In this document: in pieces, positions 47,578 to 56,401 of the stretch
Layout: each line of letters opens with the position of its first letter
Position numbering within the stretch: position 1 is the first letter of the stretch
Source of the DNA: Candidatus Gastranaerophilales bacterium
GTDB taxonomy: Bacteria > Cyanobacteriota > Vampirovibrionia > Gastranaerophilales > Gastranaerophilaceae
NCBI GenBank assembly: GCA_944324945.1
Contig: CALUYE010000001.1
Coordinates: 496,001-560,000 of the forward strand
Length of the DNA: 64,000 nt
Reading direction: 5' to 3'
Program-made: the position numbers and the translations under genes
The notes under the pieces: generated by a model
Seen by the model: only the letters and a program-made list of their open reading frames with translations
Told to the model about the DNA's origin: nothing
The model's database searches: none

Positions 47578-47940
47578 ATGAAAAAAACAGCTGTTTTGTT
47601 ATTTTTTTTATTAATCACAACTTGTACTTTTGCAACATCATCTGAATGTTACAGAAATTTCAGCCAAAATCCCGATATTTTATTTATGAGCGCTGTTGCT
47701 GCAATTGATTCTTTAAACCAATTGGAGTTATGCGAAATACAATCAAAGAACGGCTATATTTTATTTTCGAAGGGTTCAAAGTTTTATCTTTTGACTCTTA
47801 CGAAAAAATATCAAAATCAAACGGAAATCAAAATCCTGCCTCAGGACAGTAATTATAACGATAATAACGAAGTTGCAAAAGCGGTTTTTTCTTTAATTGA
47901 TTTTCAACTAAAATATCAAAAAATGGAGCAGGTTAAATAA
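47578..47940 (+). CDS. Small exported protein of unknown function
   Basis: 120 residues from ATG 47578, one base after the polA stop. A signal peptide (TAVLLFFLLITTCTFA) is followed by a short domain with two Cys (SSECYRNF, ELCEIQ) and several beta-like stretches (SKGSKFYLLTLTKKY). It overlaps the priA start by one base (TAATG). Its position within a DNA-replication operon is odd for an exported protein; no function can be deduced. Confidence 0.6.
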   Translation: MKKTAVLLFFLLITTCTFATSSECYRNFSQNPDILFMSAVAAIDSLNQLELCEIQSKNGYILFSKGSKFYLLTLTKKYQNQTEIKILPQDSNYNDNNEVAKAVFSLIDFQLKYQKMEQVK

Positions 47941-49973
47941 TGCATGCTGATTATAAATATGCTCTTGTTTTGGTTGATATTAATAAACTCGGCTCCAAAA
48001 CATTCAGTTACTTAATACCTGATAATTTAAAAGAGAATATTAAAATAGGGCAGGCGGTGAGTGTTCCTTTCGGGAGAAGAAAAGAAAACTTAAAAGCTTA
48101 CGTTGTCGGTTTTTCTTCATATCTTGAAAAAGGAATTAAACCTAAAGCAATTGATGAAATACTTGAGTATCAGCCTTTATTTACAAACGAATATTTAAAA
48201 CTTTTGGATTGGGTTTCAACTTATTATTATTGCGATATTCAAACGGTTTTAAACACCGCGCTTCCTCAAAAGTTTTTTGAAAAAAACGTTAAAAAATACA
48301 GAAAACCTAAAATTAAAAACGAAATTTTTGAAATTTCAAAAATAAAAACAAATAATACTCTTTCAAATGAACAAAAAAAAGTTTACGATGAAATAAAAAG
48401 AATAAACCCCAAAACATCGCTTATCTATGGCATTACGGGTTCAGGCAAAACCGAGATTTATTTTAAGTTAATGGAAGATGCGATTAAAAAAGGTAAAAAT
48501 GTTATATTTTTAGCTCCTGAAATAGCCCTTGTATCCCAGCTTGTTATAAGAACAACAGAGCATTTTGGCACTGATTCAATAGCAATCTGGCACAGTTCAA
48601 TAACTGAAGCCGAAAAATATGAAACCTGGAAAAAATTAAGAAATAATGAAATTAAAATCCTTTTTGGAGCGCGAAGTGCTATTTTTGCGCCGATTCAAAA
48701 TTTAGGGCTTATTATTATTGATGAAGAACACGATTCAAGCTACAAACAAAATATGCCAAACCCGAGGTATAACGCTAAAGATGTTGCAAAAAAATTATGC
48801 GAACTCTATGATGCAAAGTTAATTTTAGGCTCTGCAACCCCTTCGATTGAAAGCTATTATGAAGCCGTTAATACCAATTCTTTATTTACCTTAAAAGAAA
48901 GATATAATAACGCATCCCTGCCTAAAGTTGTTGTTGTTGATATGAGGCAAGAAAGGTTTGAGAGAAATTACACTCTTTTTTCAAAAACGCTTGTTGAAAA
49001 CACCAAAAAAACGATTGAAAACGGAAATCAGGCAATTTTTTTAATAAACAGACGCGGTTTTGCAACATATACGCAGTGTCTTGAATGCGGTAAGGTGGTT
49101 GAATGTAAAAAATGCGCAATTCCTTTGATATACCACGCTCAAACAAATTCATACAAGTGTCATTATTGCAATTATGAATTAAAAGCGCCGATAAGATGTC
49201 CTTCTTGTAATAGCGAAGCTCTGGAAAATTTCGGTGCAGGTTCTCAAAAAGTTGAACTTCAAGCAAGAGAGATTTTTAAAGACTACAGAATTGAAAGGCT
49301 TGATTCCGATAGTTTATCCAAAAAAAACGAACATATTAAAATTTTAAAAAGGTTTCAAAATAAAGAGATTGATATTTTAATCGGTACCCAGATGATTGCC
49401 AAAGGTCTGGATAACAAAAACGTTACGCTTGTCGGGGTGATTAATGCGGATTTGAGCTTTAATTTGCCCGATTATCGAAGCTCCGAGCGGGGTTTTTCAA
49501 TATTGACACAGGTTGCAGGCCGCTCAGGGCGCGGGGAAGAAGAAGGAAAAGTAATTTTTCAAACTTATAATGAAGATAATATTTTCTTAAAAGATGCGCA
49601 AAATCAAGACTATGAAAATTTTTACAAAAGCGAGATTGAATTAAGAAAACTTTTTGACTATCCTCCTTATTCTAAAATGATAAGAATAATACTTTCTTCA
49701 AAAAATGAATACAGAGCTGAAAAATCAGCTCTTGAAATAGAGCTTCATTTAAGCGAATATTTAAAAAAACTCTCGCTTGATGAAACAATTTTGGTTTTAG
49801 GGCCAAGCCCTTGTGTTATTAACAAGATTAAGGATGAGTATCGTTTTAATATTTTAATTAAAAATAAAATAGATGAACTCGGACACAGAACGGTTTTAAG
49901 ATTTTTAAAATCGATCAAACTCCCATCAGACATTAAACTTACCGTAGATATAGACCCTTTGGATATATTATGA
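47940..49973 (+). CDS. priA: Primosomal replication restart helicase PriA
   Basis: 677 residues, at the short end for PriA. It restarts stalled or recombination-generated forks. The N-terminal DNA-binding domain (FSYLIPDNL) is followed by the helicase core with Walker A GITGSGKTEIYF, DEEH in IIIDEEHDSSYKQ and the late QVAGRSGRG. The zinc-binding insertion has four Cys pairs (CLECGKVVECKKCAIP ... CHYCNYELKAPIRCPSC). It overlaps the next helicase gene by 4 nt (ATGA), implying coupled translation with the recombination genes. Confidence 0.95.
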   Translation: MHADYKYALVLVDINKLGSKTFSYLIPDNLKENIKIGQAVSVPFGRRKENLKAYVVGFSSYLEKGIKPKAIDEILEYQPLFTNEYLKLLDWVSTYYYCDIQTVLNTALPQKFFEKNVKKYRKPKIKNEIFEISKIKTNNTLSNEQKKVYDEIKRINPKTSLIYGITGSGKTEIYFKLMEDAIKKGKNVIFLAPEIALVSQLVIRTTEHFGTDSIAIWHSSITEAEKYETWKKLRNNEIKILFGARSAIFAPIQNLGLIIIDEEHDSSYKQNMPNPRYNAKDVAKKLCELYDAKLILGSATPSIESYYEAVNTNSLFTLKERYNNASLPKVVVVDMRQERFERNYTLFSKTLVENTKKTIENGNQAIFLINRRGFATYTQCLECGKVVECKKCAIPLIYHAQTNSYKCHYCNYELKAPIRCPSCNSEALENFGAGSQKVELQAREIFKDYRIERLDSDSLSKKNEHIKILKRFQNKEIDILIGTQMIAKGLDNKNVTLVGVINADLSFNLPDYRSSERGFSILTQVAGRSGRGEEEGKVIFQTYNEDNIFLKDAQNQDYENFYKSEIELRKLFDYPPYSKMIRIILSSKNEYRAEKSALEIELHLSEYLKKLSLDETILVLGPSPCVINKIKDEYRFNILIKNKIDELGHRTVLRFLKSIKLPSDIKLTVDIDPLDIL

Positions 49974-52900
49974 TAATTAATGCAAATTCAACTACAAACA
50001 GGACTTTAATTTTAATTGATGAATACATAAACCTTTTAAAAAAGGGTGTTAACAGCGAAAAAATTCTTGTCCTTGTTCAAAATTCAAAAAAGAAAAACGA
50101 ATTTATAAATTTAATTAAAGAAAAATTCGATTTCGGAAATATCGGTAATTTAAAAATATACAGTTTTTTTGGGCTTGTGTATAATTATGTAAATGAAAAT
50201 TGGGCGCTTATTGAAAATTCGATAAAAGATACAAAAAACGTTAAAATTTTACCTAACTTGTGCGGGCTTGAAGTTTCGCAGTATATTTTTAAAAATTGCA
50301 TAAATGAAGTTGATTTTACGGGGTATAATTCCAAAACAAGCCTTTTGCACCAGCTTTTAAGAAGATATTCTTTGATTAACTTTAATGCTCTTGATAAAAA
50401 AGAAATAAAACTAAGGGAAAATATCCTAAAAGAAAGTTACAGCAATGAAGCGCGGGAGGCAATAAATAAATATAAACTCAAAACCATTGAAAAGCGCGCT
50501 TTTGATTATATAAGACAGATTAATTTATTTGAATACCTTTATAAAAATTTAAAAAACGAATTCGAATACGTTTTTTTGGATGACGGAGATGAGATAATTC
50601 CAGCACTTTTGGAGTATTTAAAATATATTAAAAAAGATATTAAAGAGTTTTTTATAGGGTATGATTCAAACGGCTCTTCGCGTCTCGGTTATCTTGGCGC
50701 CATAAATGTTGATTTTGAGGAATTTTTAGGAGAAAAAGCGCATAAAATAACAACCATTGATAAAAAAACAAAAAACGCACTTAAGATTTTAAATTCAATT
50801 AAAAACGACGAGTTAATTGAACTTGAAAATATTGAACAAAGAACTTTCTTAAGACGCGATGAGATGCTTGATGATGTAATTAATGAAATTAAAAACCTCA
50901 TAAATCAAGGGGTAAAATATAGCGATATATCTATAATAACTCCATTGTGCGACGAATTTTTAAAAAGCAGCCTTGAAAAAAGCGGTTTTGAATTTAATTT
51001 CATATCAAAAAGCGAAAAATTAAATCAAAACAGATTAATAGGCTATATTCTTGAATTTTTAAAAATTATAAACGATACAAATAATTCAGATATCTCCCCC
51101 TATTGCTTAAAAGGGATATTAATGGAATTAATCGGCCTAAGGGGGGCTAGTGCACTTCAATTTATTCAGGAATACAAAATTAAAAGAGAATTGGAAGATA
51201 AAAATTTATTTGAATTAATAAAAGAAAAAAAAGAAGAAGATTTTAAAAAATTATATGAGATTTATGAAAAAATAAGATTTCAAAAGCTTTCTTTTCAACT
51301 TTGCGAAATAATAACAAATTATATTCCTTTAAATAAAGAAATATCAAAAGATATTATTAAAATTAATCAGCTCTTAAAACAGATTTATGATTTTGAAGAA
51401 GTCTTTGATGATGAAGTCGGGATAAATGAATTAATTAATCAAATTGAAAATACGATAATATCTGAAAATCCGTTGTCTGATGATGAAATTGAAGAAAATT
51501 CAATTGTTGTTTCATCGATTCAAAAAATAATCGATTATTCTCATAAAACAAAATATCAATTCATGCTTGATATTAATAACGAAGGCTGGCTGAAACAGGA
51601 TATAGGGCCTTTGTATAACGCATGGGTTATGCAAAAAAGCTGGAAAAAAGAGAGTTTTGAACTTGAAGATAACATGGAATTAACAAAAGACAGAAGCGCA
51701 AGAATGCTCTATAAGGCGTATCTGTTGGCAGATAAAATATATCTTTATTCTTCTTCGTATGATTCTTTAGGATTGGAAAATTTTTCAGGGATTGATAAAT
51801 TCTATAAATTTGATTCAAAAATTGAAAATTCCACACTTCAAAAACCGATTATTCCAAGGCAAGACCAAAAAGCCGTTTTTGATTATAACGGCGGTTTGAT
51901 GTCTGTCAGCGCGACTGCAGGCTCCGGCAAAACGACGGTTATGCTTCTTTTAATTGAAAAAATATTATCAAAAGAAATTTTGAATAATGAAGAAATCGGA
52001 GAAATTGAGCCTAAAAATATTTTTGTTTTAACTTTTATGGAATCAGCCGCAAGGAATTTCAAAGAAAGAATTAAACAAAGATACCCGCAATTAAAAGAAT
52101 TACCCAACATTTCAACAATCCACGGGCTTGCGCTTAGAATAATCAAAGAAAATAATAACTATTCAAGGCTCGGGCTTGATTATGATTTTGAAATAATTGA
52201 TGAAATAAAAAGAACATCGTTATTGAATGAAATTTTATATACTCTGGGCATTCAAAACGATAAATTAAATTTATACGACAGTGCCATTTCAACTTATAAA
52301 AGCGAACTTGCAAAGTATGGCGATTATAATTGTTCAAATAAATTATTTTTAAAGGTTTTTAATTTATATCAGGCAAAATTAAAAGAGAGTAATTTAATAG
52401 ATTACGATGATTTGTTGTTCTTAAGTTTGAAACTTTTAAAGGAAAATTCCGATATTCTTGAATATTATCAAAACCTTGCAAAAATAATAATTGAAGATGA
52501 AGCGCAGGATTCAAGCTTTATTCAGCAAAGTTTAATTACGTTTTTATCGGGCAAATATAATAACGTTATAAGATGCGGTGATATTAATCAGGCAATAACT
52601 TCAACATTTACAAACAGCGATGTTGAAGGGTTTAGAGAATTTATGAAAAAATCCAAAAATGTTGAAATGAACAGATGCCAAAGATGCGCAACGGGAATAC
52701 TGGATTGCGCCAATAATGTTGTTAAATTTGCAAATAATAAAAATTTCAACCCTTTTTCAACATTAATTATGAAACCGGTTGAGGGGGTAAATATTGTTGA
52801 TAAAAACGCGGTAAAATTGAATATTTTTGAAAAAGAAAATGAAGAAATTGATTTTGTTATAAATAAAATAAAAAATATCTTATCTAAAGACAATAAAGCA

Positions 52901-53779
52901 AGCTGCGCGATACTTTTGAGGAGTAATTTTGCAATAGCAAGATGGGAGCAATTGCTTAAAGATAAAAAAATTAAAACATACTGCAAGTCTGATGCTTTTA
53001 TTAATAACCCTGTTTTTAAAATTTGCCTTTTGATTTTGGAATATATTATAGAGCCTTATGATATTAAAAAAGTTAAAACATTAATTGAAGAACTTTTCAA
53101 ACTTAAAAAATACGATATTGCAACTCTTGAATATGTTAAAAATATAAATACTCCTCTTTTCCTGTGCCAAAATTATGATGAACAGTTTTTTTGGGATATG
53201 AATTATTTTTTATATAAAAATCATTATTCAATTTATAACCTTGTTTATGAAATCGGGAATTTTTATTTTAAAAATACAAAACAGGAAGTAAATATTTCGC
53301 TTGTTGCAACGATAGCTCAAAAAATAAGATTAAATCAAAAAAGTTTTGAAAATACGGTTAAAAAATTAAGAGAAATTCAATTCAGAAGCAATTTCTCAAA
53401 TATTAAACTCTTTAATGACGATAAAAATGATGAATCACGCGAACAAACGGTTCAGATTATGACCCTTCATAAATCAAAAGGGGATGAATTTGATTACGTA
53501 TTTATCCCTGAATTATCGCAGGATAATATGTGTTTTAATATTGATGAATATAAATTAAAAGAAAATTCAAAATTTAATCAAAAAATTAAAAAAATTCCGC
53601 TTGATGACCTTTCTTTAAAAAAAGAAATCATTGAAGAAAATTTCAGGCTAATGTATGTCGGAATTACAAGAGCAAAGAAAAAATTATTCATCAGTGCTTC
53701 AAACAGCTATAAGATATATAATAAAGTAAGACCTTCAAAAAATTCGGAGTTTTTTGAAGGAATGGAGAGTATTATATGA
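49970..53779 (+). CDS. Giant double UvrD-like helicase (AddB-like dead half fused to AddA-like active half)
   Basis: 1269 residues. The C-terminal half has every superfamily 1A motif: Walker A TAGSGKTTV (~650), STIHGLALRI, Walker B IIEDEAQD, GDINQA, VQIMTLHKSKGDEFDYVF and RLMYVGITRAKKKLF. The N-terminal ~620 residues follow the same order in decayed form: ANSTTNRT in place of a P-loop, LKIYSFFGLVYN, FLDDGDE, FFIGYDSNGSSRLGYLGA (motif III-like) and RMLYKAYLLADKIYLYSS (motif VI-like). An inactive plus an active UvrD fold is the architecture of AddB/AddA or RecC/RecB, here in one chain. No nuclease domain is seen in it; the next gene supplies one. Likely role: DNA end processing for recombination, an inference from architecture. 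Confidence 0.8.
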   Translation: MIINANSTTNRTLILIDEYINLLKKGVNSEKILVLVQNSKKKNEFINLIKEKFDFGNIGNLKIYSFFGLVYNYVNENWALIENSIKDTKNVKILPNLCGLEVSQYIFKNCINEVDFTGYNSKTSLLHQLLRRYSLINFNALDKKEIKLRENILKESYSNEAREAINKYKLKTIEKRAFDYIRQINLFEYLYKNLKNEFEYVFLDDGDEIIPALLEYLKYIKKDIKEFFIGYDSNGSSRLGYLGAINVDFEEFLGEKAHKITTIDKKTKNALKILNSIKNDELIELENIEQRTFLRRDEMLDDVINEIKNLINQGVKYSDISIITPLCDEFLKSSLEKSGFEFNFISKSEKLNQNRLIGYILEFLKIINDTNNSDISPYCLKGILMELIGLRGASALQFIQEYKIKRELEDKNLFELIKEKKEEDFKKLYEIYEKIRFQKLSFQLCEIITNYIPLNKEISKDIIKINQLLKQIYDFEEVFDDEVGINELINQIENTIISENPLSDDEIEENSIVVSSIQKIIDYSHKTKYQFMLDINNEGWLKQDIGPLYNAWVMQKSWKKESFELEDNMELTKDRSARMLYKAYLLADKIYLYSSSYDSLGLENFSGIDKFYKFDSKIENSTLQKPIIPRQDQKAVFDYNGGLMSVSATAGSGKTTVMLLLIEKILSKEILNNEEIGEIEPKNIFVLTFMESAARNFKERIKQRYPQLKELPNISTIHGLALRIIKENNNYSRLGLDYDFEIIDEIKRTSLLNEILYTLGIQNDKLNLYDSAISTYKSELAKYGDYNCSNKLFLKVFNLYQAKLKESNLIDYDDLLFLSLKLLKENSDILEYYQNLAKIIIEDEAQDSSFIQQSLITFLSGKYNNVIRCGDINQAITSTFTNSDVEGFREFMKKSKNVEMNRCQRCATGILDCANNVVKFANNKNFNPFSTLIMKPVEGVNIVDKNAVKLNIFEKENEEIDFVINKIKNILSKDNKASCAILLRSNFAIARWEQLLKDKKIKTYCKSDAFINNPVFKICLLILEYIIEPYDIKKVKTLIEELFKLKKYDIATLEYVKNINTPLFLCQNYDEQFFWDMNYFLYKNHYSIYNLVYEIGNFYFKNTKQEVNISLVATIAQKIRLNQKSFENTVKKLREIQFRSNFSNIKLFNDDKNDESREQTVQIMTLHKSKGDEFDYVFIPELSQDNMCFNIDEYKLKENSKFNQKIKKIPLDDLSLKKEIIEENFRLMYVGITRAKKKLFISASNSYKIYNKVRPSKNSEFFEGMESII

Positions 53780-54360
53780 AAAAAATCGATACTTTTAGCG
53801 CAAACTCTCTAAAGCTTCTTGATAAAAGCGTTTTGGAATTTGAAAATAAATATCTGTACAATCTTTCTATAATGAAAAAAGATAAAAGAGCAATTTTAGG
53901 GCAAAAGTTTCATAATCTCATTTGTTTTTATATAAAAAATTTTGATGTTTCAAAATTAATCCTGAATTTGACACAAGATGAACAAAAAAGCTGGCAAAAG
54001 CTTAAAGACTACCTGAAAGACAAGAAAGATGACTTTATTAAAACGGAATATTCTTTTTTAATTAAAGAAAAATTAAACTCTAAACCCTATTTTTTAACAG
54101 GGCGTTTTGATGCCGTATATAAAAAGGATGGCTTTTATGTAATTTATGATTGGAAAACTCTTAATATTCCTAAAAATCCCAAAGATGACTTACAGAGTAT
54201 TGTTTATTTATTCTGTGCAAATAAAATTTTTAAAACAGAAAAGATAAAACTTAAATATCTTTCGATAGAAAAGCTTGATTCTTTTGAAATACCTTTTATA
54301 AATCCTGATTATTATAAAGAAAAGCTTGATAAAATAATATTAAAACATTTTATTAAGTAA
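53776..54360 (+). CDS. RecB/Cas4-like PD-(D/E)XK nuclease
   Basis: 194 residues. Motifs of the RecB nuclease domain: His46 in GQKFHNL, Asp112 in TGRFDAVY, Asp125 and Lys127 in IYDWKT, and Gln140/Tyr144 in DLQSIVYLF. No Cys cluster for an Fe-S site as in AddB or Cas4. It overlaps the giant helicase by 4 nt (ATGA), so the two probably form one complex, with this subunit supplying the nuclease that is normally fused to AddA or RecB. Its last 49 bp overlap the opposite-strand gene ending at 54312. No CRISPR genes are nearby, so a Cas4 role is unlikely. Confidence 0.85.
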   Translation: MKKIDTFSANSLKLLDKSVLEFENKYLYNLSIMKKDKRAILGQKFHNLICFYIKNFDVSKLILNLTQDEQKSWQKLKDYLKDKKDDFIKTEYSFLIKEKLNSKPYFLTGRFDAVYKKDGFYVIYDWKTLNIPKNPKDDLQSIVYLFCANKIFKTEKIKLKYLSIEKLDSFEIPFINPDYYKEKLDKIILKHFIK

Positions 54361-54639: not shown

Positions 54640-55503
54640 TTAGCCTATATTATCAAGTGATTTTTTTAAAAGCTCCAAAAACTCTTTCCTGTCTTCAAGG
54701 GGATATACAATATTGCATAATGAATCGTATCTTAAAAGTCTTTTAAAGAGCTTTTGCTTATCTTGAGAGTAGTTTGTAATTACAATTTTATCTTTAAATA
54801 CATCTTTCAAGACTTCATTTTCTTTTAAGACATAATTTTTAGCCAGTCTTCCTCTTAATTCAAAAACGGTTTCTTTTTCGTTTTTGTTGCTTGATGTTTC
54901 TTTTATGGGGTGCATGCTTAAAATATCACAGGGAGAAATTTGTTTTTTTTCTCTTGTTTCAACATCTTCAAAAAGAAAAAAAGAATTTTTTTGTCCCCAG
55001 ATATATTCAACAGGCTTTAGAATAAGATTTTCTTTTTGTTTTGTTGTGATATTCAGGGTATATTTTTTATTTAAATATTTTTGAAAAAGTTCTGTTTTTT
55101 CGCTACATTCGCTATCTTGCGTTATTTTATTGAAAAGAGTGTATTTTTCAATAAAATTGTCGTAATCGTTTTTTGATGACAAATATAAAAATTTTTTAAA
55201 AATAAAATGCAGCTCTTTTGTTTTATTTTTTGGAAAAATACCGTTTGCTAAAGTTAAAAGATGCGCCATTATATTTATATTAAGTATAGAATAATTGATT
55301 AAATTTTTAAAAGAGACTATTTTATATTTTCTGTTTTCTTTTATATATTTAAACCCTGCAAATAAAATAAGCCTTAAGTTTTTAAAAAAGGTAACCTGTT
55401 TTATATTCAGTGCTTCCATGATTTCTTCTTTCGAATAAAAATTATCCAAAAGCATGCGTGTCATAATAAGCGGTGTTTTATTTATCGAGCGGTTGTTTTT
55501 CAT
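54640..55503 (-). CDS. WYL-type regulator, second of a pair
   Basis: 287 residues. An N-terminal helical DNA-binding-like region (YSKEEIMEALNIKQVTFFKNLRLI) is followed by a WYL-like domain (ILKPVEYIWGQKNSFFLFEDVETREKKQISPCDILSM) and a C-terminal WCX-like extension. WYL proteins bind nucleic acids or nucleotides and often control DNA-damage or phage-defence genes. It overlaps the upstream WYL gene by 26 nt, as in the tandem pafB-pafC arrangement of actinobacteria. The sequence is divergent. Confidence 0.65.
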   Translation of the reverse strand: MKNNRSINKTPLIMTRMLLDNFYSKEEIMEALNIKQVTFFKNLRLILFAGFKYIKENRKYKIVSFKNLINYSILNINIMAHLLTLANGIFPKNKTKELHFIFKKFLYLSSKNDYDNFIEKYTLFNKITQDSECSEKTELFQKYLNKKYTLNITTKQKENLILKPVEYIWGQKNSFFLFEDVETREKKQISPCDILSMHPIKETSSNKNEKETVFELRGRLAKNYVLKENEVLKDVFKDKIVITNYSQDKQKLFKRLLRYDSLCNIVYPLEDRKEFLELLKKSLDNIG

Positions 55504-56401
55504 AGTTTGATTTCAGTATTTCCAATTTTTCCCTGACCTGATTTTTTATTTTGCCTTCCGAAATATAATAAACATCGGGGCAAAAATGAAGTATTCTTTG
55601 TATTAAATTAAATTCGTTTATAATCGGTGCTTTAATTATCACAAAATCATCTTCTTCTTTTACTATTTCGTTTTCATCTATTGTTGCATTTAAATACGCA
55701 TTTTTTGAGACTTTATATGTAACGTAATTTGATTTAAAATTAAACATCACGCATTTTCTTAGAACTTTTTTTACCATAAAAATTCTATCTATCGGAAGTT
55801 CAAAAAAATCAGTTGCCCCCTCAAGCATCCCGTGAAGATAAAGCCTTTGAGACATTGTGCTGAAGCTTATCTTATCAAGATGAAACCATATTAATTTATT
55901 TCCGCCTTCAGGCAATATATAATCCAAAATTACAATATCTTTTGTTTTGCAATGATTTTCAAGAATTTCAATCAACCCCCAGTTGAGAGTTGAAAAATAA
56001 CCAAAGTTAAGAAATTGTTTTTTTCTTTCTTCATCTTTTATAAAATCCGAGACTTTATAAAATAATTCCATTAAGGCTCTTATTGCTTTATAATCTTTTT
56101 GCGCAAAAAGCATGTTTTTTGCATCATTTAATACTTTTAAGTTTTCTTTTGTTAATTCAAGATTGTTTTTTGTATTTTCAACCGAATAATATATTGCCCT
56201 GTTTATTTTTTCTTCATTTACGGTTATATCATGCGCTCTTAATTTATTTATGTAATTTAGAATTGAAGTTTGCCCTGCTTCAATTGAGAATTTTTGAAAC
56301 TCGTCTATTAATTCTTTCCTTGTATATTTGCCGTTAATTAAAAGATTCAGCAAAAGCAAAATTTTATGAATTATTGTTTTTTTAGCTGTTTTTAATTCCA
56401 T
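55478..56401 (-). CDS. WYL-domain transcriptional regulator, first of a pair
   Basis: 307 residues. The N-terminal winged-helix-like region (LLINGKYTRKELIDEFQKF) is followed by a WYL domain (IVILDYILPEGGNKLIWFHLDKISF ... LYLHGMLEGATDFFELPIDRI) and a C-terminal WCX-like region (DFVIIKAPIINEFNLIQRILHF). In mycobacteria a WYL pair (PafB/PafC) activates the SOS-independent DNA-damage response. Here the pair lies convergent to polA-priA-helicase-nuclease, making DNA repair a plausible but unproven target. A TATAAT sits 7 nt before the ATG. Confidence 0.78.
   Translation of the reverse strand: MELKTAKKTIIHKILLLLNLLINGKYTRKELIDEFQKFSIEAGQTSILNYINKLRAHDITVNEEKINRAIYYSVENTKNNLELTKENLKVLNDAKNMLFAQKDYKAIRALMELFYKVSDFIKDEERKKQFLNFGYFSTLNWGLIEILENHCKTKDIVILDYILPEGGNKLIWFHLDKISFSTMSQRLYLHGMLEGATDFFELPIDRIFMVKKVLRKCVMFNFKSNYVTYKVSKNAYLNATIDENEIVKEEDDFVIIKAPIINEFNLIQRILHFCPDVYYISEGKIKNQVREKLEILKSNYEKQPLDK

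Follow-up and report, generated by a model that had tools for sequence, protein, structure and literature searches.

A fused pair of UvrD-like helicase folds, one of them inactivated, with a coupled PD-(D/E)XK nuclease: a candidate DNA-end-processing machine of Gastranaerophilales

Do two overlapping genes, the first carrying two UvrD-like helicase halves in one chain and the second a small nuclease, encode a machine that processes double-strand DNA ends, and if so, is this AddAB in a rearranged form or an assembly of its own? The genes lie in the window, i.e. the whole 64,000-nucleotide stretch of DNA that was analysed, in a genome of 1.92 Mb (99.85% complete) whose closest named relatives are Candidatus Gastranaerophilales MAGs, mostly from animal guts. 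The initial annotation had described a fused AddB-like/AddA-like helicase from which the nuclease was split off. Both open reading frames and their shared ATGA were found where it had placed them (Table 1), and polA lies farther upstream of priA.

Table 1. Positions in the window of priA, the fused helicase gene, the nuclease gene and their motifs
Feature	Position	Strand	Description and evidence
priA	47940..49973	+	677 aa; 3' end shares 4 nt (ATGA, 49970-49973) with the helicase start
Fused protein, dead UvrD-like half and active UvrD-like half	49970..53779	+	1269 aa; Pfam
N-terminal half, residues 1-626	49970..51847	+	Complete UvrD fold, inactivated motifs; Pfam, AlphaFold2, fold searches, hhalign
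N-half Walker A/P-loop remnant, ANSTTNRT	49982..50005	+	Residues 5-12; alignment A2, motif table
N-half motif II remnant, LDDGDE	50576..50593	+	Alignment; DExx catalytic Glu replaced by Asp
C-terminal half, residues 627-1269	51848..53776	+	UvrD helicase, all motifs; Pfam 3.6e-45 and 4.3e-27, alignment A3
C-half active Walker A, ATAGSGKT	51911..51934	+	AVPGAGKT in relatives; alignment A3, tree rows
C-half active motif II, DEAQD	52496..52510	+	Invariant alignment columns
C-half motif VI, ITRA with arginine finger	53663..53674	+	Invariant alignment columns
ATGA stop/start overlap, helicase gene to nuclease gene	53776..53779	+	4 nt
Stand-alone PD-(D/E)XK nuclease, RecB/Cas4-type	53776..54360	+	194 aa; Pfam, alignments, AlphaFold2, fold searches
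Nuclease active site, D112 (GRxDA) and D125-x-K127 (DWKT); also H46, E91	54109..54156	+	Invariant in 16 diverse relatives

The helicase halves and the nuclease

The C-terminal half carries the complete UvrD motif set that had been claimed for it. Pfam UvrD-helicase matches at residues 632-894 (3.6e-45) and UvrD_C at 905-1245 (4.3e-27), and motifs I (ATAGSGKT), II (DEAQD), III (GDINQAI), V (HKSKGDEF) and VI (GITRAK) are intact and mostly invariant among 23 relatives. The description of this half as AddA-like did not hold: its nearest sequences in the PDB are PcrA, UvrD and Rep (1e-68 to 1e-51), followed by AddA (6e-37), the fused protein scores 90 bits against the AddA profile TIGR02785 (cut-off 708), and in the profile search the half stayed far under the AddA, RecB and PcrA equivalog cut-offs. 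In a maximum-likelihood tree, the C-terminal halves of the fused proteins, the UvrD of a three-gene operon described below and the second UvrDs of cyanobacteria form one clade (100/100), with PcrA, Rep and UvrD-Cas4 outside it and the fused forms grouped together (99/97); some rows are long-branched, which leaves the inner order of this tree unsure.

For the N-terminal half and the nuclease we relied on profiles and folds, because phmmer against PDB sequences gave nothing significant for either. Residues 1-620 alone match Pfam UvrD-helicase above the gathering cut-off (E 1e-5), with residues 9-229 aligned to profile positions 24-244, and the same match is obtained in 13 of 23 relatives (best 3.4e-10). 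The profiles of the two halves are collinear over 356 columns (hhalign probability 97%, E 8.8e-11), in keeping with the proposal that the N-terminal half holds a decayed motif set in the same order. The AlphaFold2 model of this half (23-row alignment; pLDDT 85.3, pTM 0.84) has the UvrD fold that the initial annotation had predicted, being matched over its whole chain by UvrD and PcrA with Z 28-29 (Foldseek, VIA-align). AdnB (Z 24.3, 578 residues, 4.9 A), AdnA (Z 24.2), AddB (Z 22.2, 579 residues, 5.7 A, collinear over AddB residues 4-699) and RecB (Z about 20) follow, and the AddB NCBIfam profile is unmatched in all 23 relatives. Judged by the model, then, the UvrD fold is secure, but the half cannot be identified as AddB in particular, its fold being about equally near to UvrD, AdnAB, AddB and RecB.

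The motor of the N-terminal half is, on its motifs, dead. The P-loop site is decayed in all 80 surveyed loci; it corresponds to GPxxSGKT in sister families and is G-x4-GKT-like in Cyanobacteria, so that the absence of a P-loop noted at first is true of the window's genus, where a remnant nevertheless persists (Table 1). The Walker B glutamate is replaced by aspartate (DDxDE) in 21 of 23 relatives, and the arginine finger of motif VI is gone. D207 and E208 are invariant within the order, and in the alignment they are strongly conserved along with D232, G235, R238, G240, W540, D544 and Y549. Such strong conservation outside the dead motifs points to a role of this half in structure or in reading the DNA.

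The 194-residue protein belongs to Pfam PDDEXK_1 (2.5e-9). Its residues G42, H46, E91, D112, D125, K127, Q140 and Y144 are invariant among 16 diverse relatives, and the alignment shows the catalytic residues to be intact in the window's protein, all of which agrees with the separate, coupled nuclease that had been annotated. Its AlphaFold2 model (pLDDT 91.8) is best matched by the AdnA nuclease (Z 17.1, 2.7 A), followed by ACE1 Cas4-like proteins (Z 14-15), AddB (Z 12.9) and RecB (Z about 11); phmmer of a cyanobacterial orthologue (L212) against the PDB gave no match at E 0.01. In sister genera the nuclease has retained four cysteines, one N-terminal and three C-terminal (C...CxxCx5C), a pattern that is the predicted Fe-S signature of nucleases of the AddB, Cas4 and Dna2 types. 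These cysteines are lost in the window's genus, and the C-terminal CxxCx5C occurs in 42 of 75 helicase-adjacent nucleases.

Convergent with the nuclease gene, two overlapping open reading frames (287 and 307 aa; window 54640-56401, minus strand) possibly encode HTH-type regulators; a Pfam search with them returned zero matches. A promoter scan was uninformative, with 80 promoters found against 63 expected.

Distribution within the order and the phylum

The N-terminal half is present in 185 of 192 genomes of the order, and the two halves are fused in 80 of 80 Gastranaerophilales loci, which rules out a chance or pseudogene fusion. The nuclease gene adjoins the helicase gene in 75 of 78 testable loci, with overlapping reading frames in 67 of those 75, and the pair seen in the window is thus a regular feature of related genomes; the patterns of this contig survey were Gastranaerophilales-specific, and its coverage is this order. 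The polA-priA neighbourhood, which had been taken to fit a role in end resection, fared less well. Although priA does overlap the helicase start here, it lies immediately 5' of the fused gene in 30 of 68 related loci, and the context is therefore lineage-specific.

Within the window's family, two genera keep the fused helicase with a weak or absent nuclease match, namely g17 (G087, G112) and g20 (G105, G109, G122, G123, G125, G127, G157, G178, G189). It follows that the helicase can work alone or with another nuclease.

Outside the order the parts are arranged differently. A genome from another order of the same class (G380) encodes a 1451-aa fused protein that overlaps a 283-aa nuclease, and one genome of the phylum (G200) has an operon of three overlapping genes, for a 673-aa dead helicase, a 712-aa UvrD and a 280-aa nuclease. 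In Cyanobacteriia the dead helicase is a stand-alone protein of 660-770 aa (A4 profile, E down to 1e-282), for which the examples scanned matched no Pfam or NCBIfam family. Dead helicase and nuclease are found in nearly all sampled Cyanobacteriia genomes, and in those examined the nuclease and a second, non-PcrA UvrD (SAVPG[AS]GK[ST]) are unlinked to the dead helicase. A recent internal duplication was rejected as the simple account of the two halves, since the N-terminal half has these stand-alone orthologues of its own. One cyanobacterium (G225, f19) has a dead-helicase homologue (8e-274) and a second UvrD with no nuclease match, and its congener G320 differs.

Counted by hand over 386 genomes, with cut-offs of 1e-12 or lower for A4 and 1e-20 or lower for the nuclease, dead helicase and nuclease go together (both in 295, helicase only in 16, nuclease only in 1, neither in 74; phi 0.88). 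RecC (PF04257) was found in 62 of the 386, 5 of them with the dead helicase and 57 without; 306 have the dead helicase only and 18 have neither. All 57 belong to one family (f36; 1.6-3.7 Mb), which is without both dead helicase and nuclease and is consistent with a picocyanobacterial type matching marine Synechococcus/Prochlorococcus, reported to have recBCD (PMC5101192). Fisher p-values overstate the exclusion between RecC and dead helicase, because this is essentially one replacement event; the exclusion rests mainly on f36, and five genomes hold both.

These five are four genomes of one family (G194, G198, G203 and G212; f13) and G226, in which RecC occurs together with a dead-helicase homologue of divergent sequence. 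The f13 homologues may be a subfamily of their own or an intermediate one, and G226 is 9% contaminated. A further genome without RecC and dead helicase (G192) has an AddA-type gene (L252, G192:C15:70014-73568; 8e-161, 1229-aa frame). Two families of small genomes in sister orders of the same class (f8, f10) showed no RecC, no AddA over the cut-off and no dead helicase, and from the f8 order, without all these systems, it follows that such a machine is not indispensable.

Other end-processing genes and known systems

As the initial annotation would require, the window's genome was found to have no RecC match (PF04257) and no canonical AddA or AddB, with no protein above the AddA cut-off. Its best AddA-profile score, 105 bits, belongs to a protein on contig 5, and this same protein and the 194-aa protein are the only two PF12705 nucleases of the genome. 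The contig-5 protein (L011:2562-5609, minus strand; G000:C5:48579-51578) is a solo 1015-aa UvrD with a C-terminal PD-(D/E)XK nuclease and a cysteine cluster, and no AddB neighbour was found beside it. It is a second possible end-processing enzyme, one that could do resection, and in that respect a caution. The genome also encodes PcrA, a Rep-like helicase and a 965-aa protein with a UvrD helicase domain (L012:817-3714, minus strand; G000:C8), the N-terminus of which we take to be PHP-like. UvrD-Cas4-like fusions, the kind to which the contig-5 protein belongs, are described in PMC5704561.

AddAB has a single motor and two nucleases, that of AddA cutting the 3' strand and that of AddB the 5' strand, and Chi is read by the inactive helicase fold of AddB, as it is by the dead helicase of RecC (PMC4824097). 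The present locus is like AddAB (B. subtilis; PDB 3u4q, 4cej) in joining one active UvrD motor to a dead UvrD fold, and in its RecB-type nuclease, relatives of which carry the Fe-S-type cysteine signature. It differs in having both helicase folds in one chain, one separate nuclease instead of two, no AddA or AddB profile matched at cut-off, the dead fold and the nuclease on separate proteins, and a helicase chain without the C-terminal nuclease that AddA bears. AdnAB (mycobacteria; PDB 6ppr, 9np6) likewise has two UvrD folds, with AdnA as the best structural match of the nuclease and AdnB among the best of the N-terminal half, but these are two chains, each with a C-terminal nuclease, whereas the one chain here has none. 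As in RecBCD of E. coli, a dead UvrD fold (there RecC) is combined with an active UvrD motor (there RecB), and only one nuclease is active; unlike there, the nuclease is not fused to the motor, and the RecC family is unmatched.

Among less complete likenesses, the fusions and operons of UvrD with Cas4-like (pfam12705) proteins also tie a UvrD helicase to a PD-(D/E)XK nuclease, but a dead UvrD partner is not described for them in the portion of PMC5704561 consulted. ACE1, an Argonaute-associated Cas4 family protein (PDB 9iab, 9iac), is a cyanobacterial stand-alone Cas4-like nuclease of a sequence family other than that of the 194-aa protein. Gabija (GajAB) differs in that no GajA ATPase-nuclease is present here, the neighbours being priA and the PDDEXK_1 nuclease. 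Searches of the literature on AddAB, RecBCD or DNA repair in Melainabacteria/Gastranaerophilales turned up no account of this helicase-nuclease pair.

Interpretation of the proposed machine and its evolution

Taken together, the two genes probably encode a single-motor, single-nuclease machine of the RecBCD/AddAB kind that processes double-strand DNA ends. It can be hypothesized that the UvrD motor of the C-terminal half moves 3' to 5' and splits the duplex, while the fused dead half would provide a wedge or a channel and might also scan the sequence of one strand, as in AddB and RecC. The coupled RecB/Cas4-type nuclease would dock on the dead fold and cut one emerging strand, presumably the 5' one, as the AddB Fe-S nuclease does, and the single-stranded DNA left would be for RecA in break repair. 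Such an enzyme would cut the 5' strand constitutively and form 3' overhangs, possibly without a Chi switch.

A different function was considered for the same parts, in which the helicase is an accessory to replication forks and gap repair coupled to PriA: the motor would remodel stalled forks, the dead half bind DNA and the nuclease trim flaps, double-strand ends not being the substrate. The 4-nt overlap with priA in the window, the nearness of the C-terminal half to PcrA/UvrD rather than AddA and the genera that retain the helicase without the nuclease all point this way, but priA is linked to the helicase gene in no more than 30 of 68 loci, the genome already has PcrA and a Rep-like helicase, and genomes without the dead helicase often have RecC or AddA instead, so that we regard this account as unlikely. 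Less likely again is a role in defence, in which the enzyme would destroy plasmid or phage DNA entering the cell, like Gabija or the UvrD-Cas4 fusions. The parts occur almost throughout the phylum, mostly in one copy each, they have housekeeping neighbours with no defence-island context seen, and a viral-contig scan with the N-half profile, a weak one based on a single short pattern, found no relative, which likewise led us to reject a phage or mobile origin. The PADLOC matches to GajB and Cas4 that favour defence arise through shared domains, that to GajB via the UvrD domain. UvrD-Cas4 fusions do occur in defence contexts (PMC5704561), and uvrD, cas4 and a PD-(D/E)XK gene of S. elongatus limit RSF1010 plasmids (PMC10653904), but this plasmid phenotype does not discriminate, because RecBCD and AddAB also degrade foreign DNA. 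Slightly less probable still is a genuine AddAB descendant, in which addA would have taken up the helicase-like part of addB while the addB nuclease became a separate gene. The collinear AddB fold match and the AddB-type cysteines of sister-genus nucleases favour it; against it stand the missing AddB profile match in 23 relatives, a C-terminal half that is far under the AddA cut-off and nearer to PcrA, the fit of the UvrD and AdnB folds to the N-terminal half, which is as good or better, and the existence of unfused three-gene forms.

The same three-gene relatives, the operon of G200 and the dispersed genes of Cyanobacteriia, speak against the splitting off of a nuclease as originally proposed, and suggest that the parts began as separate genes of which two were later fused. 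The best reading of these sequences is that the end-processing machine was put together separately, from UvrD and RecB-nuclease modules, and would not be a simple shuffle of AddAB. Whether it also represents an unnamed enzyme of the whole phylum, composed of a dead UvrD, a dedicated UvrD and a Cas4/AddB-type nuclease and serving Cyanobacteriota in place of RecBCD/AddAB, we judge to be an even call. On this phylum-wide reading, Cyanobacteriia would encode the enzyme in three genes lying apart, one lineage in an operon and Gastranaerophilales in fused form.

Two reports bear on the cyanobacterial members. In S. elongatus, loss of a non-PcrA uvrD raises RSF1010 plasmid maintenance and natural transformation, as does loss of a PD-(D/E)XK protein, Synpcc7942_0992 (PMC10653904); if these hits are the candidate orthologues, the phenotypes might fit the loss of an enzyme that degrades DNA ends. 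S. elongatus is also stated to encode AddAB (PMC10269773). A published survey (PMC5101192) found recB and recC missing from most cyanobacteria, the genetic models Synechocystis PCC6803 and Nostoc PCC7120 among them, and the enzyme that opens double-strand breaks in them is for that reason unsettled. The three-part set is a candidate for this break-processing enzyme, seemingly missing from most cyanobacteria, and in the layout described here it is a minimal one, with one motor and one nuclease. Read as a Rosetta stone, the fused gene predicts that three unlinked cyanobacterial proteins, currently unnamed or generically named, would work together, which gene removal in model cyanobacteria can test. 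If the phylum-wide reading is true, it would add a further, separate assembly of such a machine from UvrD and RecB-nuclease modules.
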